Origin: Indolivaga macrotermitis
GTDB lineage: Bacteria > Bacteroidota > Bacteroidia > Bacteroidales > Dysgonomonadaceae
Assembly: GCF_900128985.1 (NCBI RefSeq)
Contig: NZ_FQUC01000001.1
Location: forward strand, 682,001 to 746,000
Length of the DNA: 64,000 bases
Direction: 5' to 3'
The translations under genes and the position numbers were made by a program. Below the pieces are notes generated by a model. It saw only the letters and a list, made by a program, of their open reading frames with translations, was not told the DNA's origin and made no database searches. Positions 2,931 to 49,926 of the stretch are shown here, one piece after another (the stretch's first letter is position 1; every line of letters begins with the position of its first letter).

Positions 2931-2943
2931 AATCTAAATAAGA

Positions 2944-2977
2944 ACGGGGCTGATATCCGATATCAGCCCCGTTTTTT
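2944..2977. terminator. Bidirectional intrinsic terminator between convergent genes
   Basis: A 13-bp perfect stem, ACGGGGCTGATAT with ATATCAGCCCCGT, has a CCG loop. It is followed by TTTTTT on the plus strand and preceded by an A-rich stretch. It lies between the convergent PEP-synthase-like gene and the DUF4293 gene and can serve both. Confidence 0.85.
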
Positions 2978-2993
2978 ATGTTGTAATGAAATC

Positions 2994-3452
2994 TTACCTT
3001 ATTCTGTTGAGAGACTGGATAAGTTTTTCGTCCGCTTTTATCTTGGTGATTGCCAAAATGATGAATATTAAAGCAATAACCGGTAATAGCAAGCCATACT
3101 TCACATTTACAAATGTAGTAGCAGTTGCAGTAAGCCCTGCTTGTAGATAAGCATAGAATGTACCGTAAAAAGCAAGGATAATAACTATCGAGGTATAACA
3201 TAACTTCAACTGTAACTTCCTCTTCTTATATAAGAAAATGGTAATAAACAAGAGCACAGTTACAAGCGCAGCAATAACTATTACACCACAAGTCGGATAC
3301 TCGAGGCCTACTCCATTTTTGTAAAAGCCTAAACATCTGGCGATAAAATATCCATCAGCATTGTCTGCCAGAAAAGCCAGAGGGCTAAAAACGGTTACAG
3401 CCATCAAAATGGCTGCAACTAACAAAAATATAGATTGTATTCTCTGTATCAT
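2994..3452 (-). CDS. DUF4293 family integral membrane protein
   Basis: 152 residues starting MIQRIQSIFLLVA, the typical N-terminus of the Bacteroidota DUF4293 family. Four hydrophobic segments are visible, at about residues 5-27, 57-78, 86-108 and 118-140, with short polar connections and a lysine/arginine-rich C-terminus, so it is a small inner-membrane protein. Its function is unknown. It is the last gene of a minus-strand group bamD / omega subunit / DUF4293; its start overlaps the omega-subunit stop by one base, so co-translation is likely. A strong hairpin terminator follows it. Confidence 0.8.
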   Translation of the reverse strand: MIQRIQSIFLLVAAILMAVTVFSPLAFLADNADGYFIARCLGFYKNGVGLEYPTCGVIVIAALVTVLLFITIFLYKKRKLQLKLCYTSIVIILAFYGTFYAYLQAGLTATATTFVNVKYGLLLPVIALIFIILAITKIKADEKLIQSLNRIR

Positions 3453-3784
3453 TAGAAGTTATCTTTATCCTTATTTGGATTTCTGTAATAGATTTTTCCC
3501 TCTGTATATTCCTGAGCTGCAATAAGTGAAGCCTTAGGCAGTTTTTCATAATAGCGAGAGATCTCGATCTGCTCACGGTTTTCGAAAACTTCTTCCAGAT
3601 TATCATTGTATGAAGCAAACTCCTGTAGCTTACGATCCAAGTCTTGTTTCATTTCTACAGCTATCTGATTAGCTCTTTTTCCGATGATTCTGACAGTTTC
3701 ATAAATATTTTCAGTGTCAGCCGAAAGGCTCATCATATCTCTGGTTACCGTGTTGCTGGGTGCATTCGTCTTTTTGTAGTCCAT
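3452..3784 (-). CDS. rpoZ: DNA-directed RNA polymerase omega subunit, Bacteroidota type
   Basis: 110 residues starting MDYKKTNAPSNTVTRDM. The core has GNIYE-like and IIGKRANQI segments (here ENIYETVRIIGKRANQIA), matching the Rpb6/omega fold, where this helix clamps the beta-prime C-terminus. The C-terminal part (FENREQIEISRYYEKLPK, then KIYYRNPNKDK) is a conserved Bacteroidota extension. Omega helps RNA polymerase assembly and stability in the cytoplasm. The gene lies 81 bases after bamD and abuts DUF4293, an arrangement I know from other Bacteroidales. Confidence 0.85.
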   Translation of the reverse strand: MDYKKTNAPSNTVTRDMMSLSADTENIYETVRIIGKRANQIAVEMKQDLDRKLQEFASYNDNLEEVFENREQIEISRYYEKLPKASLIAAQEYTEGKIYYRNPNKDKDNF

Positions 3785-36975: not shown

Positions 36976-37049
36976 GGGGCATTAGCTCATCTGGCTAGAG
37001 CGCAACGCTGGCAGTGTTGAGGTGATCGGTTCGAGTCCGATATGCTCCA
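36976..37049 (+). tRNA. tRNA-Ala (GGC)
   Basis: A full cloverleaf is visible: acceptor arms GGGGCAT and ATGCTCC (one G-T pair), D arm GCTC/GAGC, anticodon stem CAACG/TGTTG with loop CTGGCAG giving anticodon GGC, and T arm ATCGG/CCGAT with loop TTCGAGT. The discriminator is A. The CCA end is not encoded. It is the left border of the prophage; the integrase starts 142 bases downstream. Confidence 0.95.
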
Positions 37050-37053
37050 CAAA
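37029..37053 (+). other. Inferred left attachment site of the prophage
   Basis: The T arm and 3' end of tRNA-Ala adjoin the integrase gene, the classical arrangement in which the phage att core restores the tRNA 3' end. The second copy, which would prove the boundary, is not in this window, so the exact core is unknown. Confidence 0.35.
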
Positions 37054-37190: not shown

Positions 37191-38393
37191 ATGGGACGAA
37201 GAAAAGTAAAGTTCGTGCTTCCAAAATTGAACGATGGAGGCGGAAAATTGTCAGCGTTATGGTATGTAGAATATTCATACCGGGATGAGAGGAATGATAA
37301 ACTAGATCGCTTTCGTATTTACGAAGGCTTCAAAGCGTTACAAACTACAGATGAACGCTACAATCATGCAAATGCTATCATAAAGGAAATATCCGATAAA
37401 ATTTTATCGGGGTGGAATCCTTTTGAATTGGAAAAAGTGGTGTTCAATAATCACATTGCATACAACATCCAGGCTCGTGTTTATGGGAATAGAGAGGAAT
37501 CTGAGAAGAATTTTTTCTATTATATCAATGCTTTTCTTGGTGAGAAAAAGCCGTTATTAGCAATAAAAACGATGCAGGACTATACTTCTAAATTACGGAT
37601 GTTCTACCATTGGCTACAAACTAAAGGGTTAGATAATATCTATGCCGGCGAAATATCAAATGATCATGTATCAGATTATATATATACTTTGATTGAAAAG
37701 GGGAGGGAACGGCACACAATAAAGGATACAAAACAAAGAATCAGTCAAGTACTGAACTGGCTTGTAAAGAAAAGAGTAATCAAGAGCAATCCAGTGTATG
37801 ATGTTCCGGACGGAAAGCAACACTATGACCATTCGGCACAACCAATGACACAAGATGAAGCCTCGTTTTTATTAAGTTACATAAAAGAACGAAACGAACA
37901 GCTGTATTTATTCTGCTCAATGATTTTTTATTGTGCCATTCGTCCAGGTACAGAATTGCGACTACTTAAAGTAAAAGATATTAATTTATTCACTAAAACG
38001 ATTACTATTAGGCCTGAGAATGCTAAAACAACGCAAGGTATAGTAAACATGCCTAAAAAGTTGATTGAAATATTAAGTGAGATAAAAATATCTCTGAATG
38101 AAAGGGAATTCTATGTTTTCGGAAAAGAAGGCAAACCAGGTACTGAATGTTGGGGTAAAAATCATTTCAGATTAGAATTTAATAAATACCGGGATGCCGT
38201 CGGGTTTCCTAAAGAATACAAGCTCTATAGTTGGAAGTGTACGGGTGGAATTCTTTTTTCTATGAGTGGTGCACCATTGCCGGCCGTACGAGATCATTTT
38301 CGGCATAAATCAACGGCATATACTGATATATATATAACCAAGAAAATAGGAAAGCAAAACGATTATGTAAAACATAAATTCCCTGAGTTATAA
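37191..38393 (+). CDS. Phage tyrosine recombinase / integrase
   Basis: 400 residues. A SAM-like core-binding domain occupies about 100-200 (KTMQDYTSKLRMFYHWLQ). The catalytic domain has box I Arg in YCAIRPGTELRLLKVKDI near 246, the beta-hairpin Lys in ENAKTTQG, RDHFRHKST in the position of the box II His/Trp, and the nucleophile Tyr in TDIYITK near 388. The usual HxLR motif is replaced by YSWKCTG, so Lys stands where Arg is expected. It would catalyse integration into and excision from tRNA-Ala. It is the only prophage gene on the plus strand besides the repressor and is convergent with the tail gene. Confidence 0.88.
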   Translation: MGRRKVKFVLPKLNDGGGKLSALWYVEYSYRDERNDKLDRFRIYEGFKALQTTDERYNHANAIIKEISDKILSGWNPFELEKVVFNNHIAYNIQARVYGNREESEKNFFYYINAFLGEKKPLLAIKTMQDYTSKLRMFYHWLQTKGLDNIYAGEISNDHVSDYIYTLIEKGRERHTIKDTKQRISQVLNWLVKKRVIKSNPVYDVPDGKQHYDHSAQPMTQDEASFLLSYIKERNEQLYLFCSMIFYCAIRPGTELRLLKVKDINLFTKTITIRPENAKTTQGIVNMPKKLIEILSEIKISLNEREFYVFGKEGKPGTECWGKNHFRLEFNKYRDAVGFPKEYKLYSWKCTGGILFSMSGAPLPAVRDHFRHKSTAYTDIYITKKIGKQNDYVKHKFPEL

Positions 38394-38423: not shown

Positions 38424-40268
38424 TTCTTTTGGGAAAAAGTAACCGGCTATATATTCCGAAAAGCCGTTGATCGTAACTTCTTTCTCAATCTTATTACATA
38501 CGTATTTTTTATTATTTATAATAAATATGTCTCTGATATTAAAATCAGGTTTGTATTTAAACATAAATTTATATGTAATAGTAGTATCTGTAATATCGGA
38601 CAACGAATATATATCCCGGTTTAAATTGGATAATCTGAACGGGTCACTACCTTCCGGTGCATAATATTCTATAAGTCCTGTTTTCTCGAAGTATTCACAA
38701 AGTGATTCAACATAAGCAACCGGGTATATAAATTTGATCGGGTCGGATGGCTCAGGATTATACAGCTCCGACAAACCTGAGTAAATAGCCAGGCGCATTT
38801 TGGTATAACCGGTATCGGATTCTAATGATTCGCTCCCTTCTATAATTGACTGTAAATTAATTTTTTCTTCTGATTCCAGACTCGTATCAGTCGGGTTCCA
38901 CAAAGGTGTATAATTTCCGGCTATTGGAATTTGGAACCAAATTTCTCTGTTTAAATCTTGTCCTTCCCTTTCATATTGGGGAATCATCGCTGCCGGAATA
39001 ATATCCAGTTCCTGATCGATTTCAGTAGAATCAGGATTGTTATATAAAGGACGGAAAGAATTAACGCGCCTTGGTACTAATTTTTCGCCGGTATCATAAG
39101 CAATATATTCGTCATATCCGTTTGTAAATATTATATCTTTAATATCGTCTTGAACTGAACCCTGTATCAATTCTACCAATTCAGGTAAAGTATTAAATGT
39201 CTGTTTTCTGGCTTGTGCATACACTTCCGGGTCTATGTTCATAAAACTGTAATACTCATCTGAATCTAAAGCATACCCGATATTTGCAACCTGAGGGTTC
39301 AGCCTGTTTTCTTCATCGGTGGTTCGGGTATATTTATCCAGAACGGAAAGAGTAGATGTTTTGGGGTTGGTTGCATCCAGTTTATAATTGTACAGCATCT
39401 CGACATTCTTTGTTTCAGAATCAACAGCGAATACACAATCAAACTGAAATTCGAGTTTAGATAAAAAATCTTCTACCGTCCAGTCCGGAAGCATTTTTGC
39501 ATATTCCATTGTTTGAATACCATGTACAATATATGCATTTTTAAATATCGGGTGTTCAGCCAGTGCGCTATAGGTAAGTTTATAACCCAGTGCGCTGAAC
39601 ATCCTGTCTATGATAAAGCATAAGTAAGGTTGTGGAACTTGTCCTGAATAATAGGGGTCATAAAATGGATAAAAATCTCTGTCGCCTGTTGTACCTCCAG
39701 GCGCATTATATTCGAGTTGGTAGAATACGAAATTATTACCTAACGGTTCATATCGGTCAAGAGCCTCACTACTACTACTTACGGCATAAGGTAATAGCTG
39801 GTGACCAACATTAGGATATGAAAACTGTAAAAGATATTTTACCTGCCGGGCTATTGCAAATGCTTTAGAGTCATTCGGGTAACCGGCTCCATCCAAAGTA
39901 GCAGCCATACCTAAATCCAATGATCTTAATTTGCGGTTGCTGCCTATCAAAAAACTGAGTTCTGAGTTTCCACTGGCCAGCTGTATCTTTACATCTTCAT
40001 CTGTAATGTCAAGAATAATCTCAGTACCTTTTAAGTGTACCTTGTTATCCACAATTAAAATAGCCTGCCTATTTTCAATTTGGTTATTTACGACATTAGT
40101 CCTGTTAATATTCTGGTATATTCGGGCATTTGTAGTATTTTTCAATGAAAGTGTTATGTCATATGTATAATCACTACTTTTATTGAATACAGGATTTTCA
40201 GAATATAATGAAAATGAAAAGCCATCAGGCAGAACTACCTCTTGTCCGTTAATTAATAATCTAGTCAT
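38421..40268 (-). CDS. Phage distal tail / baseplate-like protein
   Basis: 615 residues, starting MTRLLINGQEVVLPDGFSFS. It is beta-rich with few cysteines and no signal peptide. The N-terminal ~110 residues look like a small structural domain (SDYTYDITLSLKNTTNARIY). The middle contains ASGNSELSFLIGSNRKL, and the C-terminus ends in TYKFMFKYKPDFNIRD and a KKYVCNKIEKEV segment. Directly downstream of the tape measure, with which it overlaps by four bases, such a protein normally caps the tail tube. I cannot place it in a named family, so distal tail is inferred from position and composition. Confidence 0.6.
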   Translation of the reverse strand: MTRLLINGQEVVLPDGFSFSLYSENPVFNKSSDYTYDITLSLKNTTNARIYQNINRTNVVNNQIENRQAILIVDNKVHLKGTEIILDITDEDVKIQLASGNSELSFLIGSNRKLRSLDLGMAATLDGAGYPNDSKAFAIARQVKYLLQFSYPNVGHQLLPYAVSSSSEALDRYEPLGNNFVFYQLEYNAPGGTTGDRDFYPFYDPYYSGQVPQPYLCFIIDRMFSALGYKLTYSALAEHPIFKNAYIVHGIQTMEYAKMLPDWTVEDFLSKLEFQFDCVFAVDSETKNVEMLYNYKLDATNPKTSTLSVLDKYTRTTDEENRLNPQVANIGYALDSDEYYSFMNIDPEVYAQARKQTFNTLPELVELIQGSVQDDIKDIIFTNGYDEYIAYDTGEKLVPRRVNSFRPLYNNPDSTEIDQELDIIPAAMIPQYEREGQDLNREIWFQIPIAGNYTPLWNPTDTSLESEEKINLQSIIEGSESLESDTGYTKMRLAIYSGLSELYNPEPSDPIKFIYPVAYVESLCEYFEKTGLIEYYAPEGSDPFRLSNLNRDIYSLSDITDTTITYKFMFKYKPDFNIRDIFIINNKKYVCNKIEKEVTINGFSEYIAGYFFPKE

Positions 40269-43200
40269 TTTCGTCTGATATTTTTATCCATCTTATCGAG
40301 ATCTGATAATGCTTTCTTAATTCCTTTGTCGCCGGTTGCTGTGTTGACTGTGACAAATGGCTGATTTAACCGTTCACGCAATAACATCTGAACCTGAACA
40401 ACGTCGCTCAATACTGATAACAGATAATCTGAGTTGTCGTTATCAGGTTGTACGATGTTTTGTAATCTACCAGATAGCGGTTGCATTGAAACCCGTTCGT
40501 TATACTCCATGGCTGTGGCAAAGTCAGACGATTTCAAACTTGACACAGTATTACGGCGTTGAGCCATGTCTATAACATCTACAACAGCCCGGGCATTAGG
40601 GTTTGCCAATGTTTCCTGAGTAGCTACAAATTCGCCCCGGTGAACATATCCGGCTACATCGTATTTATTTCCTTTTGGAGTATATCCACCATCCCAATAA
40701 TTAGCCATTGCCGCCTCGTGCTGTTTTTTGATGGCAGCAACGTTGATCAATCCGGCAGCTGTAGCCACACCGGCTGCGATGGGAGCCAATGCCGGACCTA
40801 CTATCGGTATTGCGGCGGTCGATGAATATGCATTGATTGCAGATTGTGCCGTTGATGCCAGGGCCTGGGCAATCTGTATTTTGAAAGAGCGTTCTTCGTT
40901 CGCCCTGTTTGCCTCTTTTAGTTCCTTATCCCTTTGCTCTTCGAGTTTTTTAACCCGTTTCGAATTGTTTCCGGCTGCTTTTATCTGAGCCTCGTATTTC
41001 TTGTTTATTGCTGCTGTTTCGGCTTCGTTTGCAGCCTGGATATACGAAGAATAAGAACTGAGCAATTGTTGCATCGAATCAAGACCAAACTGAGCCGTTT
41101 CGATCATTCTTTGCTGTTTCGCCTTATTTGCTTCTTCTTCCAGTAAAGCATATTTCTGGACGATAGATAAACGAGCCTGCTCATACGCATCTGTGTTTCT
41201 CAAATTTTCGTCAAACATCTGATCCAGGAATGACAGTTCAGCGTCCCGGGCATCTGTCAGGTTTTCTAGTTTCTTCTTTTTATCCAGCCGTGCCTGTATC
41301 TCACTATTTTCTTCATTCAGCTTGCGTAATTTATCCTCTGTTTCTTTCTGAATTTGCAGTTTCTGTTCTTCTGTAAGACCGTCAATTTGTAGCTTTTTTT
41401 GCGCATAGGCTATCTGTATCAGCACCAATTGGTGTTGATATTGCCGTTCGCTCATTAGCCCTTTAGCATATTCCTGCGAAAGGAGTTGCGATTCTCGCGC
41501 CTGGTTATCATCCTGTGTTTTTATTTCCCGGGTAACTTTCGGACGCTCTATCTTACTCATTTTAGCATGGTGTTGTTCTTCGAGTAATTCAAGAGCGGAT
41601 AACTGATCCTTTGTCAGTTTTTCCCTGTCAACCCCAAATAAACCTAACTCCTGCAATCTTCTTTCGTATGCTTCCTGTTCAGCAGCTGCCGGATCAGCAT
41701 CAAGCAGAATCTTTTTAATTTCGGCTTGGCGTTTGATCTCCGATTGCAGAACCTGATTATCTATCTCAGATATTTGTTTATTAATATCATTCTTAACGGT
41801 GGAAACTGAAACTGATTTTAGTAAATCTTTCAGTGCAGCCTTTCTGTCACCGGCATATTTGTTTTGCTGTTCGAGTAGCTTCTGATCTTTCTCAAACTCG
41901 GACTTTATTTCTCCATCCCTGAAATCTTGAAGAATTTTAGTCCTGGCTTTGGTATCTTCTATCTCCAGTTTACGCATGGCTGCCTGAACCTTTGACCGCT
42001 GATCAGAAGCTTTACTGTCACCTGTAGGAGTAGTGGGTGCTGTAGGAGTAGTAGGTGTCTTTTTTTCGGTTTCAGCCATTTCTTCACCCATTTTATTGAT
42101 CTTCATCCAGTGAACTGTCACTTCATCGGATAAGTCATTAATTTCCTTTTCCAGTTTAGCTTTTTGTTTCGGGCTTAAACCGGGTACACTTATAAATTCT
42201 TTCTTTGATTCTATCTGTTTGGTTTTGGTTTCGATCAATTCCATTAACCCGTCAATAGAATTCTCTTTAGCTATGCCTTCCTGAACATCAGCTATTTGTT
42301 TATTGTAATTGCTTACCTTCTTGAGTGAATCTTCGATTTGTTTATCCAGGGAATCATATTCTTTTTCGAGTTCCTTTATCCGTTCTTCATCATAGGCATT
42401 GGTTCTAGGATTGGAATACAATTTATCTAATTCCTCACGGATGGAAATTTGCTTGTCTTTAAGTCCTGTTATGATTTTATCTTCTGCATCGGTACGCCCT
42501 TTCAAAGCGGCAATATCGTATCTCTTTTCATATTGCTTATTTACGTTTCGCAGAACGGCTTCGAGTTCCCTGTTACTCAATACCTCCATGTCGATGTATT
42601 TCAGATATTGGGGATATTGCTCTTTAATCTCCTTTATCAGGGTTTTTCGGATAGTTGATTTCTCGTTAGCATTGATTATAGCTAACATCAGAGAGTTGAA
42701 CGCACTTTGTTCACGGGCTATCTCCTCAGTATATTTTTTTGTTTCTTCTGCTATGCTTTTTTGTAATTCCTTATTTTTATCAAGTTCTTTGTTATTGCTC
42801 TGTAAGTGTTGATAAAGGGTATAGATTGCACCTCCTAAAAGAACGATAACAGAAAGGAACGCACCTACAGGATTTGCTTTCATTGTGACATTGAAGGCTT
42901 GGAGTGCAACACGTGCCCTAGCTAAGTTTCCTGTTAATGCGTATTTTGCTGCAGACAAAAGAGAGGTCGTAAGGATATAGGCCTTTGTTACCAAATTACC
43001 TTTACTCAGTTCAGTATAATATAGCCGTTGTGCAACTATAGCCCTGGTTGTATTACCTGTAGCTACAGCTGTAGCCATTGCATGAGATAAAGTGATTATA
43101 CGGCTCAGTATCAACACGGCATTTTTAGCCTGCTCCCAATATAGCGCTAGTTTAACACCAGCTATATACGATATATAAGCAGCTGCCAAATAAACTATAT

Positions 43201-44707
43201 ATTTACCATATTCAGAGAAAAAGTCAATAACAGCCGGCAATATCTTAATCAGGTCTATCATATAATTGGTAGACGACATCAGCGAGGGAGCTAACCTTTC
43301 CCCTAATTCTAAAGATACGTCTGATAAAGCTTTACGCGCTTTGTCCAAGGTAGCCTGTAGGTTGTTATTCTTAACATTATATTCGTTGGTGAGTGATGTG
43401 CCATCGGCAAAAGCTTTGTTCGAAATCTCTTGTGCTTCGCTTATTTTCCCGATATTGGTGGCCATGGCAGAAAGAACACCGACGGCGCGCGCACCATCCA
43501 GTCCCATTTCCTGAAACATAGGTATGAGAGCTTGAAAACCTCCTTTTTCTGACAATGCCATCAATACCTGTTTGATCGCTGCATTTGTATCCTTACTCAG
43601 GAGGTCATTAAATGCTTTGACCTCCAAACCTGCGATCTTGGCAAATTTAGAAGGCTCGGACATTAATTTCATTATGAAGTTTTGGAACGCTGTAGCGGAC
43701 ATCTCTACAGCTTGTCCGGACTGATCGAGTGCAGATGCGTAGCCTAATATATTTTGTATAGATATGCCTGCCTGAGCAGCCACACCCCCTAAACGTTGTG
43801 CAAAGTTTACCATATAACCTTCGGAAGCTGTAGAACTGGCTCCGAGTTCGTTAATAGCCGAACCTATAGCCAGCATTTTACCTTTGATATCAAGGTTATC
43901 CAGTTCTTTAGTTGACAGTGCGAATACATCCGTCAACTTTCCTATGTTCTTGATTGCCCCTTCTCCGAGGTCTTCACCGAGTGCAACATTAATCTGATTA
44001 CCGGCATCAACAAAATCAAGTATATCCTTTTTCCCTGTCAACCCTAATTTGCCGGCATCACTGGCCAGACTGTTAAGCTCTTCACGCGATGTACGGGTAT
44101 CCATTTTCTTGAAGCTCTCATTCAGATCAAGAACCTGATCACGTGTCATACCGGTTGTCTTCATGACATCAGCATACACATCATCCATTTTCGCAAGGTC
44201 TTCAATCAATTTCTGAAAAGCGAAAGATAATCCGGTGATAGATGCGATGAAAGCAGTGACCATACCGGCAAAGTTTTTAGCACCATCTCCTGCATCAGAT
44301 CCGGATAGGCTATTTTCGGCATTAATTTTCTCAAGTTCACCCCTTACAAGCCTTATTTTTCGTTGTAATTCATCCCACTCCTTAGAATTACGGGCTACTG
44401 CACCTGAGTTTAGTTGTTTATTTAATTCACTTAGAGCCTTCTTTAATTCTTTAGGACCGGCATCCGATAAGTTACTCATTACTTTATTGACATCGAAACT
44501 CGAACGTATAATTGTTCTCATTTCCTTCTCTACCTGTCTCAGCCCTTTCGATGCTTTGTCAACGGCTTTATCGTCACCGGCTTTATTCGCTGCTACCAAT
44601 GCATCACGATAAGCTTGAGCGCGTTTTTCTAGAACGGATAATTGATTTGCTGCCTGTTGTCCGTCGACGGTGACTCTTGTCTGTGCCTGATTAACTATAT
44701 TTGCCAT
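40265..44707 (-). CDS. Phage tail tape measure protein
   Basis: 1480 residues, the longest gene here. The N-terminal ~150 residues are helical (QAANQLSVLEKRAQAYRDAL). A TP901-type core spans about 170-480, with KTTGMTRDQVLDLNESF, ASDAGKLGLTGKKDILDFV and QLGGVAAQAGIS-like segments. Hydrophobic stretches lie at about 500-640 (YIVYLAAAYISYIAGVKLAL, GAFLSVIVLLGGAIYTLY). They are followed by long charged coiled coils up to about 1290 and a small-residue membrane-like segment (IPIVGPALAPIAAGVATAAG). The length sets the tail length; about 1480 residues implies a tail of roughly 200 nm by the usual 1.5 A per residue rule. Confidence 0.88.
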   Translation of the reverse strand: MANIVNQAQTRVTVDGQQAANQLSVLEKRAQAYRDALVAANKAGDDKAVDKASKGLRQVEKEMRTIIRSSFDVNKVMSNLSDAGPKELKKALSELNKQLNSGAVARNSKEWDELQRKIRLVRGELEKINAENSLSGSDAGDGAKNFAGMVTAFIASITGLSFAFQKLIEDLAKMDDVYADVMKTTGMTRDQVLDLNESFKKMDTRTSREELNSLASDAGKLGLTGKKDILDFVDAGNQINVALGEDLGEGAIKNIGKLTDVFALSTKELDNLDIKGKMLAIGSAINELGASSTASEGYMVNFAQRLGGVAAQAGISIQNILGYASALDQSGQAVEMSATAFQNFIMKLMSEPSKFAKIAGLEVKAFNDLLSKDTNAAIKQVLMALSEKGGFQALIPMFQEMGLDGARAVGVLSAMATNIGKISEAQEISNKAFADGTSLTNEYNVKNNNLQATLDKARKALSDVSLELGERLAPSLMSSTNYMIDLIKILPAVIDFFSEYGKYIVYLAAAYISYIAGVKLALYWEQAKNAVLILSRIITLSHAMATAVATGNTTRAIVAQRLYYTELSKGNLVTKAYILTTSLLSAAKYALTGNLARARVALQAFNVTMKANPVGAFLSVIVLLGGAIYTLYQHLQSNNKELDKNKELQKSIAEETKKYTEEIAREQSAFNSLMLAIINANEKSTIRKTLIKEIKEQYPQYLKYIDMEVLSNRELEAVLRNVNKQYEKRYDIAALKGRTDAEDKIITGLKDKQISIREELDKLYSNPRTNAYDEERIKELEKEYDSLDKQIEDSLKKVSNYNKQIADVQEGIAKENSIDGLMELIETKTKQIESKKEFISVPGLSPKQKAKLEKEINDLSDEVTVHWMKINKMGEEMAETEKKTPTTPTAPTTPTGDSKASDQRSKVQAAMRKLEIEDTKARTKILQDFRDGEIKSEFEKDQKLLEQQNKYAGDRKAALKDLLKSVSVSTVKNDINKQISEIDNQVLQSEIKRQAEIKKILLDADPAAAEQEAYERRLQELGLFGVDREKLTKDQLSALELLEEQHHAKMSKIERPKVTREIKTQDDNQARESQLLSQEYAKGLMSERQYQHQLVLIQIAYAQKKLQIDGLTEEQKLQIQKETEDKLRKLNEENSEIQARLDKKKKLENLTDARDAELSFLDQMFDENLRNTDAYEQARLSIVQKYALLEEEANKAKQQRMIETAQFGLDSMQQLLSSYSSYIQAANEAETAAINKKYEAQIKAAGNNSKRVKKLEEQRDKELKEANRANEERSFKIQIAQALASTAQSAINAYSSTAAIPIVGPALAPIAAGVATAAGLINVAAIKKQHEAAMANYWDGGYTPKGNKYDVAGYVHRGEFVATQETLANPNARAVVDVIDMAQRRNTVSSLKSSDFATAMEYNERVSMQPLSGRLQNIVQPDNDNSDYLLSVLSDVVQVQMLLRERLNQPFVTVNTATGDKGIKKALSDLDKMDKNIRRK

Positions 44708-44763
44708 TATTCACTCATTTTGAGCGAATGTATAGGCTATGTTTTATAAGCAAAAAGACACAA

Positions 44764-44792
44764 AAAAGCCCGGACTTCACAGCCCAGGCAAT
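44764..44792 (-). terminator. Possible terminator before the tape measure gene
   Basis: On the minus strand GCCTGG and CCGGGC (one T-G pair) frame a ten-base loop and are followed by TTTTTTG. It would end transcripts coming from the lysis/Acb2-like genes. Confidence 0.5.
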
Positions 44793-44838
44793 TCCAAATT
44801 ATAGATAAAATCGAGTAAAACAGTCTAAGAATATTTTT

Positions 44839-45030
44839 TTATAACCAATCGGGATCGGGTTCATCATTTGACCGTGATGAATCCAGTACTAACCATAAAA
44901 GCCCTTCTTGTAATTTAGTTATTGCAAGACTACGTTCTCTATTTGGACCTAATCGTTTAATTCTTTTGATTATATTTTTAATGCCATCGATTGATTCTTT
45001 GTTAGCAAAAAATTCTTGATTTCTTTCCAT
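44839..45030 (-). CDS. Acb2/Tad1-like hairpin protein (candidate anti-CBASS/anti-Thoeris)
   Basis: 63 residues: a short N-terminal helix (NKESIDGIKNIIKRIKRL), a turn, then PNRERSLAITKLQEGLLWLV, followed by an acidic tail. The second half closely resembles the conserved helix of the Acb2/Tad1 hairpin family, whose members typically show S-R-E-x-S-L-A-x-T-K-L-E-E-A-x-x-W. Acb2 proteins are hexameric sponges that sequester cyclic nucleotide signals of CBASS, and some also bind Thoeris signals. The call is from family memory, not a search. Here the Trp is followed by LVLDSSRS instead of the usual small-residue end, so ligand range may differ. It lies between lysis genes and the tape measure, a moron-like position. 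Confidence 0.68.
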   Translation of the reverse strand: MERNQEFFANKESIDGIKNIIKRIKRLGPNRERSLAITKLQEGLLWLVLDSSRSNDEPDPDWL

Positions 45031-45114
45031 TTTGTTAATTAATTTGGTTGTTAATTAAATTTTCACCTGTTTTTTTTAATAAGAATATTGTTATTTAAAT
45101 TATTCTATACTTTG

Positions 45115-45315
45115 TCATTTCTTTAATTTTAAAATGTCGTTAACTACTCCGATGTAAACTTCTTCATCATGATTCTCAATCAGATTGTCTACATCATCAA
45201 TTGCTTGGTTATAGGCATCTTCTTGTATCAGCCTAATAGCGTTCAGAGCTTCACCTTTTGTCGGTGTATGCAGAAATCCGCTATATTTTACATAAATTTG
45301 TCCTGGTGTTCTCAT
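45115..45315 (-). CDS. Small phage protein of unknown function
   Basis: 66 residues, MRTPGQIYVKYSGFLHTP at the start, then a predicted helix with acidic patches (DDVDNLIENHDEE) and a basic C-terminus (LKLKK). Its ATG overlaps the endolysin stop (ATGA), indicating real, coupled translation in the lysis module. No family recognised. It could be a lysis regulator or an unrelated moron; nothing in the sequence decides this. Confidence 0.6.
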   Translation of the reverse strand: MRTPGQIYVKYSGFLHTPTKGEALNAIRLIQEDAYNQAIDDVDNLIENHDEEVYIGVVNDILKLKK

Positions 45316-45938
45316 TTCAATACATCCTTCGCTTTATCCCATATTTCTTTTCTGTCAGCATATCCGTTAAGTCCGCCGTTTATAACTTTGGTTAACTTTC
45401 GGAAATCATCTTCTTTTAAGGTAGCGTATCGGTTAAGGATATTTACCGACCAATACCAAAAGGCTGATAGAACAGCATATTCCGGCTCTTTCAACATTTC
45501 CGGATGTTTAACAAAGTCAATGTCCGAAATATTATTACCTATGCACCAGTTAGTGAATTTCTGATAATTAGTTTTACCTGTAACTTGAATAAGCCCCTTT
45601 CCTTTATACTTTTGACCATCACCATCAGGTTCCGGTGTATTACCTAATTTGACCGCTAAACTTCCAGTATCATAAGCTTTTCCGGATGCAATTTCTTCTA
45701 CATATTTTAATTGCCCCGATTCGTGGCCTACTTGTGCCAGGAAAGCACATATACGCTCGAAAGTATCTACACCGTATTTATGGAAATATTTATTCAGGTA
45801 GGGTAGATATAGGTCTCTATTTGTTTTGGACGAATATGGGTATATTTTTTTGAGCTGATCTTCGGTAATAAGATCAGCCGGCAGATTCGTGTTATTTTGA
45901 TACGAGCCTGCGAGAAAGCAGCCTTTATTTGTTTTCAT
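45312..45938 (-). CDS. GH19 family endolysin (chitinase-like muramidase)
   Basis: 208 residues without signal peptide. The GH19 core shows FLAQVGHESGQLKYVEEIAS near residues 68-87, with the catalytic Glu in GHESG, then YKGKGLIQVTGKTNYQKF near 112-129 and a C-terminal TKVINGGLNGYADR. Phage GH19 enzymes cleave the peptidoglycan sugar backbone. Since there is no export signal, it should need the holin, whose gene ends 14 bases inside its start. The N-terminal ~25 residues (KGCFLAGSYQNNTN) precede the typical fold. Confidence 0.85.
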   Translation of the reverse strand: MKTNKGCFLAGSYQNNTNLPADLITEDQLKKIYPYSSKTNRDLYLPYLNKYFHKYGVDTFERICAFLAQVGHESGQLKYVEEIASGKAYDTGSLAVKLGNTPEPDGDGQKYKGKGLIQVTGKTNYQKFTNWCIGNNISDIDFVKHPEMLKEPEYAVLSAFWYWSVNILNRYATLKEDDFRKLTKVINGGLNGYADRKEIWDKAKDVLK

Positions 45939-46380
45939 TTTTCTTTTCCTCCATTTTATTGATAATTATATCGGCCAGTTCTTCTTTATTTATGCCTTTC
46001 CACAATTCAGCTGCGGTTTTTGCGGCTTCTTTGTAACGTCCCTTATCTTCGTCTTTCTCGAAGATCGATTTGATCTCGACTAAGCACATGATTATTGCAG
46101 CTCCTATAGTTGCATAAGGAATGTTACTTGGATTAATATCGGAAATAATAATCAGTGAATCTACCAGGCTAAAAGCCAGCAATAGGTTATACCTTTTCCT
46201 TAGTTTATCTAAGGTTCGATCTAATCCATATGTATGAGTATATATACCTTTTGCCTTTGATTTACTTATGCCAGACCAGAGGTCAGCAATAACAGCCAGT
46301 AAGACTATTACATATGCAAACAGAACCTTATAGATGGCAGATAGATAAGGGGATATCAGTTCGTGTACTATTTCTTTCAT
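45925..46380 (-). CDS. Phage holin
   Basis: 151 residues. It has membrane segments at about 12-36 (SAIYKVLFAYVIVLLAVIAD), 68-84 (LLLAFSLVDSLIIIS) and 90-110 (IPYATIGAAIIMCLVEIKSI), with a charged C-terminal tail rich in Lys/Glu. The DLWSGISKSKAKG loop resembles class of holins annotated in Bacteroides phages (D-x-x-x-G-x-x-x-A). The immediate overlap with the endolysin gene supports the holin call. It forms the inner-membrane lesion that releases or activates the endolysin. Confidence 0.75.
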   Translation of the reverse strand: MKEIVHELISPYLSAIYKVLFAYVIVLLAVIADLWSGISKSKAKGIYTHTYGLDRTLDKLRKRYNLLLAFSLVDSLIIISDINPSNIPYATIGAAIIMCLVEIKSIFEKDEDKGRYKEAAKTAAELWKGINKEELADIIINKMEEKKNENK

Positions 46381-46392
46381 ATTTGTATTTTT

Positions 46393-46506
46393 TCAATTCC
46401 AATTAATCTTAAAATCTCTAATATCAGTCAAGAAATCATCAGAGCAATTAACGGCGACCCATACCCAGCTGTTAAGATTATAAAATATAGTTTCTGGTGT
46501 TTTCAT
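46393..46506 (-). CDS. 37-residue ORF sharing the tail fibre C-terminus
   Basis: This ORF begins MKTPETIFYNLNSW and ends DDFLTDIRDFKINWN. Its ATG overlaps the methyltransferase stop as ATGA, so it can be translated by coupling. The last 14 residues match the end of the tail fibre (DFMADIRDFKINWN), and the DNA is alike over 45 bases with four differences. It may be a true microprotein or the displaced 3' end of another fibre gene. No other family is recognised. Confidence 0.5.
   Translation of the reverse strand: MKTPETIFYNLNSWVWVAVNCSDDFLTDIRDFKINWN
46396..46440 (-). repeat. Imperfect direct repeat, copy 1 (45 bp)
   Basis: This stretch is repeated at 47427-47471 with four substitutions. The two copies flank the methyltransferase gene, as if it had been inserted by a duplication or homologous recombination at this sequence. 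Confidence 0.75.
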
Positions 46507-47423
46507 TTCAATACCTCCTCAAATAAATCAGGTTGTAAACTCATTCTATGTTCAGCCTTTCGTTTCTCGCCGGCTTCGAAATATTCGGCATCGATCTCGA
46601 AGCTGATGCAATCACATCCGGAGTTCATACAAGCAATATCAGTAGAAGCGGAACCTCTGAAAGTATCTAAAACTAACGGTTTAGGATTGTTAGGTTCAAC
46701 CTTGCAGACTAAGGCTAATAATCTTTCGATTAGACGAGTCGGTTTTTGCGTAGGGTGGCATCTAGCATATCTGTCATATGGATGTCTTATAATTGTTTTC
46801 TCAACTTGTCCATCTTGTAACATCTTCATAATCGAGCCGCTGATATTTGCTTTTTTCGTGGAATTGGCTGAAATAGAAACAGATTCCTTTTTACGAACTA
46901 CCCCATCTCGATATAGATTACCATCTTCAAGATATCGCTGAACTGCCAGTAGATCTTTTTGGTTACCCAGTATAGAAGATAGCCTTTTTATATCACTACA
47001 GATAGATTCAATATCGTAACCTTTCATTTCCAAATAAGGATTTCTTACCTTATTTAGAATCCCATTTCCTTTTGTGTGGATAGATATAGTCTCATGTATC
47101 CTGCTCACTTTCAATACAGGTGATGAAGTATATTGCTTATCCCAAACAATCTCTTCCTTAAAAGTGAAACCTAAATCAGCCAGAATAGTATTCCATCGGT
47201 AAAAAGAAGTACCACGACCGAATAGGACAATAAAGCCATCCTTTTTTAAGACTCTCTTGACCTGATCGAAGTAAGCTTTTTCGTCAAACGGTCGATCAAG
47301 CTTTTGATTTTTAAGATATAAATACGGAGGGTCCGTACAAATAACATCGACTGACTCATCGGGCAGGAGTTTCATTAGTTTAATGCAATCTCCTTTATAT
47401 GATTTATTACGTTCTAATTTCAT
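46503..47423 (-). CDS. Beta-class DNA adenine methyltransferase
   Basis: 306 residues from the ATG at 47423, just after the fibre stop; the longer frame to 47531 runs inside the fibre gene and is rejected. Motif IV DPPYLYL near residue 28 comes first, and the AdoMet motif I TFRGSAST near 265 comes last, the beta-class order. Between them lies the target recognition region, and HPTQKP near 240 is typical. DPPY predicts N6-adenine methylation. No restriction enzyme is adjacent, so it is an orphan enzyme, perhaps protecting phage DNA from host restriction. It is bracketed by a direct repeat, suggesting recent insertion. Confidence 0.85.
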   Translation of the reverse strand: MKLERNKSYKGDCIKLMKLLPDESVDVICTDPPYLYLKNQKLDRPFDEKAYFDQVKRVLKKDGFIVLFGRGTSFYRWNTILADLGFTFKEEIVWDKQYTSSPVLKVSRIHETISIHTKGNGILNKVRNPYLEMKGYDIESICSDIKRLSSILGNQKDLLAVQRYLEDGNLYRDGVVRKKESVSISANSTKKANISGSIMKMLQDGQVEKTIIRHPYDRYARCHPTQKPTRLIERLLALVCKVEPNNPKPLVLDTFRGSASTDIACMNSGCDCISFEIDAEYFEAGEKRKAEHRMSLQPDLFEEVLK

Positions 47424-47424
47424 T

Positions 47425-49926
47425 TTAATTCCAGTTAATTTTAAAATCTCTAATATCAGCCATGAAATCATTGTGACCGATCTCCCACAGGTATAAATCA
47501 GCAATGTCAGTACCGGCGACAATCCTATCAAGGATTTGCGCCTGAAAGCCCCAATTAGATACGTTATTACCCATAAAGCTGTTAGATAACGTTACATTGT
47601 CCGTGTCTGTCGCCCGAAGTACGCCTCCGGATGAAGCGTAAAGTGTAACGTTAGCGCCCAGTGCAGTTAATGCCCGTGAAATAAATTGCGCCCAGCTGAC
47701 GGTAGTTCCGTTATACGAATATCCGGCAGCAATAGAATCGCCGATAACAGTGACATTCTTTCCCATCCAACTATTTCCGAATATCGGTTTGAGCAATTCA
47801 TATACAGCGGAAAATAGAGCGTCAGCCATCGCTGAACTAGACGATAGACCCGGATGTAATCCATCATCGCACCACGATTTTAAGTTATTATAGTCTATCC
47901 CATTAACGATATTAGTATCGTTGAGAGTATAACCCATTATCGAAGCCAAATCGATAAAAGGAATATTCCTATTTTGGGCGACGGCTTTTTGAGTTGCAAC
48001 CAAAGCTTTTAGCGCTCCATTACCGGCACTACCGTCTGTCGTGAAGTGTCCGCAAAGAACATGTCGTGCATGTGATTTTAATGCAAAAATCTGATCTATG
48101 GCTGTGTTCAAAGACCCTACAAACGTATTCGTGTTCCGCATAGAGATTTTATAGGTATCATCTCCACCACTGCTACCATCTTTAATAATATTCGATTCAG
48201 GTACCATTAAAGTAGGTATCTGAATCTTACCGTCAGTTCCATATGCCTGAGCATCGGATAGTTGATTAGCCGCAATTTCAACTTTTAAATTGTCTGTTTC
48301 TACTGCATCTTCGGAATAGACTTTCTGTAAAATAAGACCTTCCTCAGAAGCGGCAACTGTGTCGTAAGTGTTTTTTACGGCGTTAATCCGGATATACTTT
48401 ACACCAAGTCCATAAGGAACATTAATATATGCGTATGTACGGGGATTTACACCTGCAGCAGCGATTCCCGGTCTATTTAAAGGCTGTTCCGGCATATTCG
48501 CCGGCCATGGTATAAATACCTGATTCTCGCCGCAAAGACTAAATTCGACACAACTATAAGTTGTTCCACTGACAGTCCATGAATTCCTTCGATATGGAGA
48601 TAAATTCAATTTATACAGACCCGGTTTTACGGGAAAATAATAATCGATATAGCAGTAGCTTGCACCCGCCGTATTACCTGCCGGAACAACTACTCCGTTA
48701 ACATCAATATTACGATCTAGTACTGTCAAAGGCGTGGGTATTCCTTCGAATAAATTAGGATTAGGGTCTCCACCGCTAGGGTGTGATACTATTCCCTCTA
48801 TTTTAGTTATTTCTGCCTTGATATCGGTTCCGAAATCAAGGCTTTTCAAACTAACCCCGTTGACATCTACCAACGCATCAGCTGTGCCCGTTGCCCCTGA
48901 CACCTTTTTCAGGGAGATAGTTTCACGGCTATCGAATACCATTGAAGGCATAGGCATACTAGCAGCAGCAACAACGAATGTAGGAGCGGACGATATAGCC
49001 ACATATCCACATAGATATAGCTCTTGGTTAGGTGTTGTGAACCTATATTTCTTCTTATAGTCCGGATAGCAATAGTATGCCGGTGTTGTTGCATACTGCA
49101 TTGCTCCGGAAGAATTAGCAGCAACAAGTACCCACGAAGGCATTTCTCTCTTTACAGGGCTGCCATTATTCCAAGCAACAAGATTGCTATTTGCATCGAT
49201 ATTGTAATAAGGAGGTTCGCCGAAATTAGGAATGTAATTAGCGTTACCGTCAATTTCATATGTGGTGTTTGGTTCGAGTTTATATATAGCCATATAACCG
49301 GCTATATTGGCTGAACCGTCACCACTGGCAACAGGTGCATTTCCATTAGATGGAGGATTGGAGTTCAGACCGTTGAAAAACCAACGGTGAATACCCATGT
49401 ACGCAACTGTTGTAGGGACAAAAGAGGCTTTGAATTCGGTTGTTAAGTCAGTTTCGCCGGTGGTATCCCCTGATGCTGCTTTGTAATAAGTAACCGGTTG
49501 AGCCAAAGTCGAAACTTTGTCGGCTTTGGCTGATAAATCAACATTTGGTATTGTACCATCAGCTGTACGTACTAATGTTCCGTCTGTAGTTGTAGTTTTA
49601 GCATAATCATCTAAATCGTCCTGTGTTGCAACATTCTCGGGATATACGGCAGATTCAAGGTTTACCCATTGAGAGCCGTTCCACTGATAAATAGTTTTAT
49701 CAGCACGAACTAAAACCGTCCATCCATTAGCAGGAGTCGGATATGTTGATAACAATAAAGCGTAAGTATCAACAGCCGGCTGCCGTATTTGACCGGAAAC
49801 GATATTTTTAATGTATTCGGTAATTCCTACCAATACAGAACCAACTATCTGCGAGGTGTTAAGAAATTTACCCGTTTGATTTTTAATTTGATTTGCATAT
49901 TGCAAAATCTGATCTAAAATATTCAT
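47425..49926 (-). CDS. Tail fibre / receptor-binding protein with permuted SGNH hydrolase
   Basis: 833 residues from the ATG at 49926. The N-terminus (NILDQILQYANQIKNQTGKF) probably attaches to the tail. A short repeat domain with WTVLVRADKTIYQWNGSQWV near 75 is common in Bacteroides phage fibres. Beta-rich carbohydrate-binding-like modules fill about 140-570. At the end, the SGNH hydrolase blocks appear out of order: DDGLHPG (catalytic Asp-His block) near 687 comes before VIGDSIAAGYS (nucleophile block) near 728 and WEIGHNDF (block III) near 817. The protein stops soon after. All four catalytic residues exist, so a circular permutant is possible. It would recognise and deacetylate capsule or glycan. 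Confidence 0.78.
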   Translation of the reverse strand: MNILDQILQYANQIKNQTGKFLNTSQIVGSVLVGITEYIKNIVSGQIRQPAVDTYALLLSTYPTPANGWTVLVRADKTIYQWNGSQWVNLESAVYPENVATQDDLDDYAKTTTTDGTLVRTADGTIPNVDLSAKADKVSTLAQPVTYYKAASGDTTGETDLTTEFKASFVPTTVAYMGIHRWFFNGLNSNPPSNGNAPVASGDGSANIAGYMAIYKLEPNTTYEIDGNANYIPNFGEPPYYNIDANSNLVAWNNGSPVKREMPSWVLVAANSSGAMQYATTPAYYCYPDYKKKYRFTTPNQELYLCGYVAISSAPTFVVAAASMPMPSMVFDSRETISLKKVSGATGTADALVDVNGVSLKSLDFGTDIKAEITKIEGIVSHPSGGDPNPNLFEGIPTPLTVLDRNIDVNGVVVPAGNTAGASYCYIDYYFPVKPGLYKLNLSPYRRNSWTVSGTTYSCVEFSLCGENQVFIPWPANMPEQPLNRPGIAAAGVNPRTYAYINVPYGLGVKYIRINAVKNTYDTVAASEEGLILQKVYSEDAVETDNLKVEIAANQLSDAQAYGTDGKIQIPTLMVPESNIIKDGSSGGDDTYKISMRNTNTFVGSLNTAIDQIFALKSHARHVLCGHFTTDGSAGNGALKALVATQKAVAQNRNIPFIDLASIMGYTLNDTNIVNGIDYNNLKSWCDDGLHPGLSSSSAMADALFSAVYELLKPIFGNSWMGKNVTVIGDSIAAGYSYNGTTVSWAQFISRALTALGANVTLYASSGGVLRATDTDNVTLSNSFMGNNVSNWGFQAQILDRIVAGTDIADLYLWEIGHNDFMADIRDFKINWN
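47427..47471 (-). repeat. Imperfect direct repeat, copy 2 (45 bp)
   Basis: This is the partner of 46396-46440. It encodes the last codons of the fibre gene (FMADIRDFKINWN). Confidence 0.75.

Follow-up and report, generated by a model that had tools for sequence, protein, structure and literature searches.

A 63-codon gene in a prophage of Indolivaga macrotermitis raises the question of whether so small a product can belong to, and still act like, the Acb2/Tad1 hairpin proteins, which take up cyclic-nucleotide signals of antiphage defense. An earlier note, made from the sequence alone, had proposed this family for the protein. The gene was analyzed within a 64,000-nucleotide stretch of the host genome, referred to here as the window. 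The observation made in the note was confirmed, and its interpretation is partly supported.

A 63-codon gene between the lysis and tape measure genes of a prophage

The ORF that had been proposed at 44839-45030 was borne out and was found to be on the minus strand, an orientation that the note had not given. It runs from an ATG at 45030 to a stop at 44839, and the frame is intact, with no internal stop. The gene sits in a 42-kb prophage inserted in a tRNA-Ala gene. A second copy of the 16-bp att core lies at 79338, beyond the window and 42.3 kb from the first, and the IMG/VR record behind locus L003 (42,058 bases) covers the same prophage. The features that bear on the gene are as follows.

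36976-37050, tRNA-Ala(ggc), overlapped at its 3' end by the att core
37036..37051, no strand, presumed left att core, 16 bp, TCCGATATGCTCCACA
37191..38393, plus strand, ORF next to the left prophage end that we take, by reading, to be integrase-like (ORF list; IMG/VR record end by coordinate arithmetic)
40265..44707, minus strand, tail tape measure protein (phrog_25337, E 5.7e-55)
44768..44789, minus strand, intrinsic-terminator-like hairpin directly 3' of the 63-codon gene (9 pairs, loop of 4, T tract)
44839..45030, minus strand, gene for the 63-residue Acb2/Tad1-hairpin protein, without the C-terminal tail (Pfam, AlphaFold2, profiles)
45031..45114, minus strand, A+T-rich gap of 84 bp upstream of the gene (15.5% GC; composition)
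45115..45315, minus strand, 66-residue ORF with no assigned function and a 4-base overlap with the endolysin gene (ORF list)
45312..45938, minus strand, endolysin (phrog_181, E 6.8e-59)
45925..46380, minus strand, 151-residue protein (phrog_20732, a PHROG whose function is not known), presumably holin-like, by position only

Along the minus strand, the order is endolysin, 66-residue ORF, 84-bp gap, 63-codon gene, terminator-like hairpin, and tape measure. The location between lysis genes and tape measure that the note had described was thus right, with the 66-residue ORF, for which PHROGs and Pfam gave nothing at E ≤ 0.01, and the hairpin also in the interval. This was the one terminator-like hairpin in 44600-45400 (shuffles: mean, 0.2; standard deviation, 0.6); its folding z score was -2.27, with 3 of 200 shuffles equally good, and it separates the gene from the tape measure. 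A scan for sigma70-type promoters gave no minus-strand site upstream of the gene (4 sites overall compared to 3.8 by chance), and a Bacteroides-type pattern gave three matches in the window, which is the chance level, and none near the gene.

The GC content of the gene is 32.3%; when 555 overlapping windows of the same length were taken across the prophage, 12.6% of them were as low or lower. Base composition was rejected as a sign of transfer because this value is not unusual within the prophage. A phage DNA methyltransferase gene (46503-47531; phrog_67, E 1.2e-44) has a tail-fibre-like gene on one side and the lysis genes on the other; in the sister prophage described below, no methyltransferase was present at the corresponding place.

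The gene looks like a phage accessory gene

The closest sister prophage, L075, has a tape measure protein 54% identical to that of the window prophage. In L075 the endolysin position is taken by a 124-residue ORF, and the tape measure gene comes next; the gap between the two held no same-strand ORF of ≥40 codons, and there was no match to the 63-residue protein anywhere in the 37.6-kb record, which may be a fragment. Because the sister record is without it, the gene looks like a phage accessory gene, or moron in the general sense of that term, in agreement with the prophage location and moron character that had been suggested. The gene is also uncommon. Among the genomes searched with the family profile of Pfam (PF24729), scores over the cut-off were found in 1 of 6 of the genus and 1 of 393 of the order, in both cases the window's own genome; at E ≤ 0.001 the profile matched 3 of the 393.

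The protein belongs to the Acb2/Tad1 hairpin superfamily

The profile check that the note had called for gave 27.7 bits (E 3.2e-6) for the 63-residue protein against PF24729 (Acb2_Tad1_hairpin), a narrow pass over the gathering cut-off of 27, and 27.1 bits in the genome-wide search. The central segment in which family likeness had been seen, NRERSLAITKLQEGLLW, corresponds to residues 30-46. All 50 rows of our main alignment (A2) matched PF24729 at E ≤ 0.01. Of 54 candidate homolog stretches, 49 entered A2 together with the 63-residue protein; L039, L050, and L061-L063 were excluded, and L064 was missed by the motif filter.

Three further profiles were built without the 63-residue protein, and each was run on 20,000 residue shuffles and on 993 open frames of the window. 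The profile of the 49 A2 homologs gave the protein 54.6 bits (best shuffle, 11.2; best other frame, 9.2), a test that is partly circular, the viral and genome homologs having been found by exact 8-residue seeds from the protein itself. A profile of 36 relatives that contain none of these seeds, taken from a search begun with another protein, gave 42.3 bits (best shuffle, 15.8; best other frame, 6.1), and a profile of four phage proteins found by plain tblastn gave 44.9 bits (best shuffle, 12.4; best other frame, 3.7). Since the seed-free and tblastn profiles far exceed their best shuffles, the family match is not due to chance. The nearest homolog is 55% identical over residues 1-56, and the nearest members are about 52-55% identical. 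Searches of other collections were less informative: the PHROG matched (phrog_15810, E 3e-4) has no known function, NCBIfam gave no match at E ≤ 1, and phmmer with the single protein against PDB gave Tad1 (8kbb) an E value of 0.29, no better than that of an unrelated ribosomal protein.

The two-helix layout that had been described was recovered in the predicted structure. AlphaFold2, run with the 50-row A2 alignment, gave an antiparallel hairpin of helices 3-25 and 31-54 (mean pLDDT, 88.2; pTM, 0.71). In a Foldseek search of viral models (BFVD), the top match was a crAss-like Acb2/Tad1 hairpin protein (TMq, 0.82; root mean square deviation, 0.9) and 5 of the best 10 matches carried the family name, with a best E value of only 0.022. 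Against PDB the model gave no match at E ≤ 0.001, generic helical hairpins, and no Acb2 or Tad1 chain among the best 50 of 90. A tailed relative used as a control found CbTad1 only at rank 12 (E 3.1) and no Acb2 among the best 50 of 80. The PDB search therefore appears insensitive for this hairpin fold and was counted neither way. By its profile matches, the 63-residue protein falls within the Acb2/Tad1 hairpin superfamily, as a derived member without a tail.

The protein has lost the tail of its closest relatives

Relatives were found at 52 viral loci, a count that includes the prophage of the window itself, at 5 genome loci, and in 6 phage records that represent 4 phages. Of the 49 A2 homologs, 35 continue beyond the hairpin, SRERSLAITKLQEAxMWLGMDLKRL, into a tail, NPYPxS...DP....IEPTADGLKL. 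This tail is absent from the other 14 and from the 63-residue protein, which agrees with the remark in the note that the part after the Trp differs from known members. The tail was present in 39 of 40 members of a second homolog set, which was seeded partly on the tailed core. Eleven of the 14 tail-less homologs have an aromatic FxYH-like element near the N terminus that is comparable by eye with the Y8 region of T4 Acb2. Minimal hairpins thus occur outside the window as well, since three tail-less homologs are very short (L040, L042, and L047; 45-59 residues).

Bacteroides, crAss-like, and Tenacibaculum phages all have members of the tailed subfamily, as do many viral contigs without an assignment. 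The earlier suggestion of a Bacteroidota variant is too narrow for these relatives as a group, and within the subfamily the 63-residue protein is the outlier. Several neighborhoods and additions were observed among the relatives. In uncultured phage cr111_1 (L062) the hairpin gene comes directly after a ribonucleotide reductase gene and one gene before a dUTPase gene, and in crAssphage ctcc615 (L064) it comes directly after a dUTPase gene. At L012 (5983-6348) the tailed hairpin is joined to about 40 residues with two CxxC pairs that look zinc-ribbon-like by eye.

In a tree, the tailed rows and the 63-residue protein were separated from the rest with 99/100 support, and the protein was placed within the tailed rows on one 99/87 fork. 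The tree is rough, with 45 columns only, a bootstrap that had not settled, and very long branches for T4 Acb2 and L040; L042, L047, and duplicate cores were dropped from its input. The branch of the 63-residue protein is 2.53 long, compared to an end-branch median of 0.097, and because of this length its exact place is unsure. Its predicted affiliation is nevertheless with the tailed, sometimes RyR-fused branch, with the tail lost. By eye, the stretch between stop and terminator contained no remnant of a tail, frameshifted or other, in any of three frames.

Six near-invariant residues are altered in the protein (R14I, D18K, S30N, M45L, G48V, and L51S in an 11-row alignment). Across core positions 31-46 it has the commonest family residue at 13 of 16, counted against 40 relatives that were seed-free or found by tblastn; the exceptions are G43 (6 of 40), L44 (0 of 40), and L45 (0 of 40, with M in all 40). 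The argument from conservation rests on this count instead of on the 11 columns invariant in A2, which are partly a product of the search seeds.

Fusions of tailed hairpins to RyR domains

The tailed hairpin is fused to an N-terminal RyR domain (PF02026, over the cut-off in each) at no fewer than nine loci, as the following single ORFs.

L023, 5611-6216
L028, 5518-6195
L058, 5124-5729
L085, 3001-3621
L087, 3001-3633
L088, 3001-3612
L089, 565-1158
L090, 3001-3594
L091, 3001-3600

These were found by a search with one long homolog, and L023/L084 and L028/L086 were counted once each; one protein is shared by L089 and L090. The true number may be higher than nine, since the count covers 80 of 157 loci and leaves out L100, L102, L132, and L137. 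The hairpin half was over its own cut-off in six of the nine (L028, L087, and L088 scored 26.4, 22.4, and 25 bits, respectively). The spacing H-x2-W, H-x24-H, H-x16-D in L023, L028, and L058 is also found in the phage RyR protein RyDEP, between H75, W78, H100, and D117. According to the available text of a preprint, RyDEP cleaves cADPR signals, and other homologs sequester them (PMC13232231). The main text of the preprint names neither Acb2 nor Tad1, and none of the papers searched joined "RyR domain," "Acb2," and "phage."

It is possible that the fusion is a two-headed antidefense protein directed against both cADPR and cyclic-oligonucleotide signals. On the contig that also carries L035, a separate RyR-domain gene (2884-3324) immediately precedes a gene for a tailed hairpin (3396-3725; L101), an arrangement that looks as if a fusion had been split into two genes. 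From these fusions, signal capture gains support as a function of the tailed branch; the 63-residue protein would, by descent, have this function now or have had it in the past.

Known dinucleotide contacts are missing

In T4 Vs.4/Acb2, cGAMP is held by Y8, H11, K23, R79, and F82, and L29, A66, A73, and A77 are positions of the hexamer (available text of PMC10097602); the change T68M lowers binding (available text of PMC12657230). In the 63-residue protein, E2 aligned with H11, L49 with R79, and S52 with F82, and Y8 and K23 had no counterpart, the N-terminal part of the alignment being unsure. Two of the hexamer positions have remained small (A36 for A66 and G43 for A73) and two are changed (L47 for A77 and D15 for L29); tailed relatives likewise differ at the latter two. 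T38 aligned with T68. The tailed relatives are also without the T4 contacts, with M at R79 and K at F82 in 26 of the 27 rows counted in each case. The A2 profile gave T4 Acb2 14.4 bits, and the other two gave 7.8 and 5.9, below the best shuffle. Because the profiles of tailed relatives barely detect T4 Acb2, any transfer of T4 biochemistry is remote. For the same reason, and because the T4 contacts are missing, the tailed branch is predicted not to use the T4 dinucleotide pocket as such. The 63-residue protein, by its residues, is not an Acb2 in the strict sense because the dinucleotide contacts tested are missing.

The C-terminal tail of Tad1 is said to form part of its pocket, and trinucleotide sites are located at the trimer interface in the core of both Acb2 and Tad1 (review PMC12043709, available text). 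The analogy with Tad1 would suggest that the tail of the tailed branch forms part of a different pocket. The note had raised the idea of a changed ligand range for the 63-residue protein. The missing T4 contacts and tail would fit such a change; loss of function would explain the same changes.

Defense systems of the host

Genes for the corresponding defense systems were sought in the window's own genome. No SMODS domain (best, 13.7 bits; cut-off, 26.5) or mCpol domain (14.3 bits; cut-off, 26.4) was over its cut-off there, and neither ThsB TIR nor Cmr2 reached one. A SAVED search of the same genome gave no match, with controls that were silent too. SMODS was over the cut-off in 4 of 41 relatives and in none of the 6 members of the genus. 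The phage may meet cyclic-nucleotide defense systems in other hosts, the present one having given no sign of a target in these searches.

A proposed reduced sponge, and the alternatives

The best reading, for which we consider the chances somewhat better than even, is that the gene is a moron coding for a minimal Acb2/Tad1-hairpin protein, a reduced sponge that has kept the oligomer core and lost the tail. Judged on sequence, a sponge function is likely. The hairpins would assemble much as those of the Acb2 hexamer do, and the resulting oligomer would sequester a cyclic-nucleotide defense signal of some infected bacterium, not evidently the present host. With the residues of the dinucleotide pocket gone, the core pocket at the trimer interface is the more likely remaining site; in Acb2 and Tad1 it takes cyclic trinucleotides, an analogy drawn from the available text of the review (PMC12043709).

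The main rival, which is rather unlikely in our estimation and yet deserves the most weight among the alternatives, is a decaying sponge, inactive, with the tail lost and the pocket residues drifting, that is kept only because the prophage is young or quiescent. The long branch and the altered near-invariant residues would be expected of such a protein, as would the absence by eye of a tail remnant before the terminator and a host in which none of SMODS, mCpol, ThsB, and Cmr2 reached a cut-off. There are precedents as well: natural inactivation of acb2 is known, with a short form in PaMx41 (review PMC12043709, available text), and loss-of-function changes in acb1 or acb2 occurred in three Panoptes-resistant T4-like phages (PMC12657230, available text). 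However, the frame is intact from its ATG, with no internal stop, and is followed by a terminator-like hairpin of its own, and the commonest residue is kept at 13 of 16 core positions compared to relatives that were not picked by the protein's own seeds.

It is improbable that the hairpin has been re-used for something other than a nucleotide sponge, for example, as a partner of a tail or lysis protein. Such a role would account for a gene between lysis and tail genes and for the missing dinucleotide contact residues, but the sister prophage with the 54% identical tape measure does without the gene in its 37.6-kb record, maybe a fragment, and two crAss-like relatives are near nucleotide-metabolism genes.

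More doubtful still is an adaptive loss of the tail, by which a trinucleotide-only sponge, blind to dinucleotides, would block trinucleotide CBASS (or the cA3 of type III CRISPR) and avoid Panoptes, a defense that is set off when its 2',3'-c-di-AMP decoy is captured by a sponge (PMC12657218 and PMC12657230, available text). A chance ORF with a family-like motif is hardly credible, since the short length, 32% GC, and narrow margin over the Pfam cut-off that might suggest one are outweighed by 42.3 and 44.9 bits with independent relatives (best of 20,000 shuffles, 15.8 and 12.4) and by the nearest homolog, which is 55% identical across residues 1-56.

If the reduced sponge is active, a tail-less hairpin of 63 residues would show the minimum Acb2/Tad1 fold for signal capture and the pocket that the core alone provides. 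If the adaptive reading were true, the hairpin family would have separable pockets, one of which phages drop to escape a guard. The analysis also draws attention to the tailed subfamily of Bacteroides, crAss-like, and other phages, for which no ligands are reported in the available text of the literature consulted; its RyR fusions point to cADPR-type as well as oligonucleotide signals.

Comparison with known systems

In PDB, the family profiles matched no sequence better than the C-terminal hairpin of Tad1 (8kbb); the E value was 3e-6 with A1, the profile of the tailed branch, and 6.2e-7 with A2. The 63-residue protein differs from Tad1 in its length, compared to chains of 123-138 residues, and in being made of helices only, with no room for the N-terminal beta-sheet domain that Tad1 has (review PMC12043709, available text).

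T4 Acb2 (Vs.4) was found by the A2 profile in PDB only at E 0.36. Like the 63-residue protein, it has two long antiparallel helices, and the two have A, T, K, E, and W core positions in common. Unlike T4 Acb2, the 63-residue protein has no N-terminal Y8/H11 element and no K23, and it has L49 in place of R79 and S52 in place of F82. A closer PDB match to A2 was 9ptq, "Acb2 homolog 43" (76 residues, 6 chains), at E 2.5e-5 over 55 residues, compared to only E 0.26 with A1; the name of this entry suggests that Acb2 homologs are being surveyed.

The 63-residue protein differs from the tailed PF24729 subfamily in being without the tail and in having I14, K18, N30, L45, V48, and S51 at near-invariant positions. 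With members of this subfamily, such as WAX08067.1 of Bacteroides phage BK735P4, which is annotated as a hypothetical protein and is 44% identical to it, the 63-residue protein has the same hairpin core.
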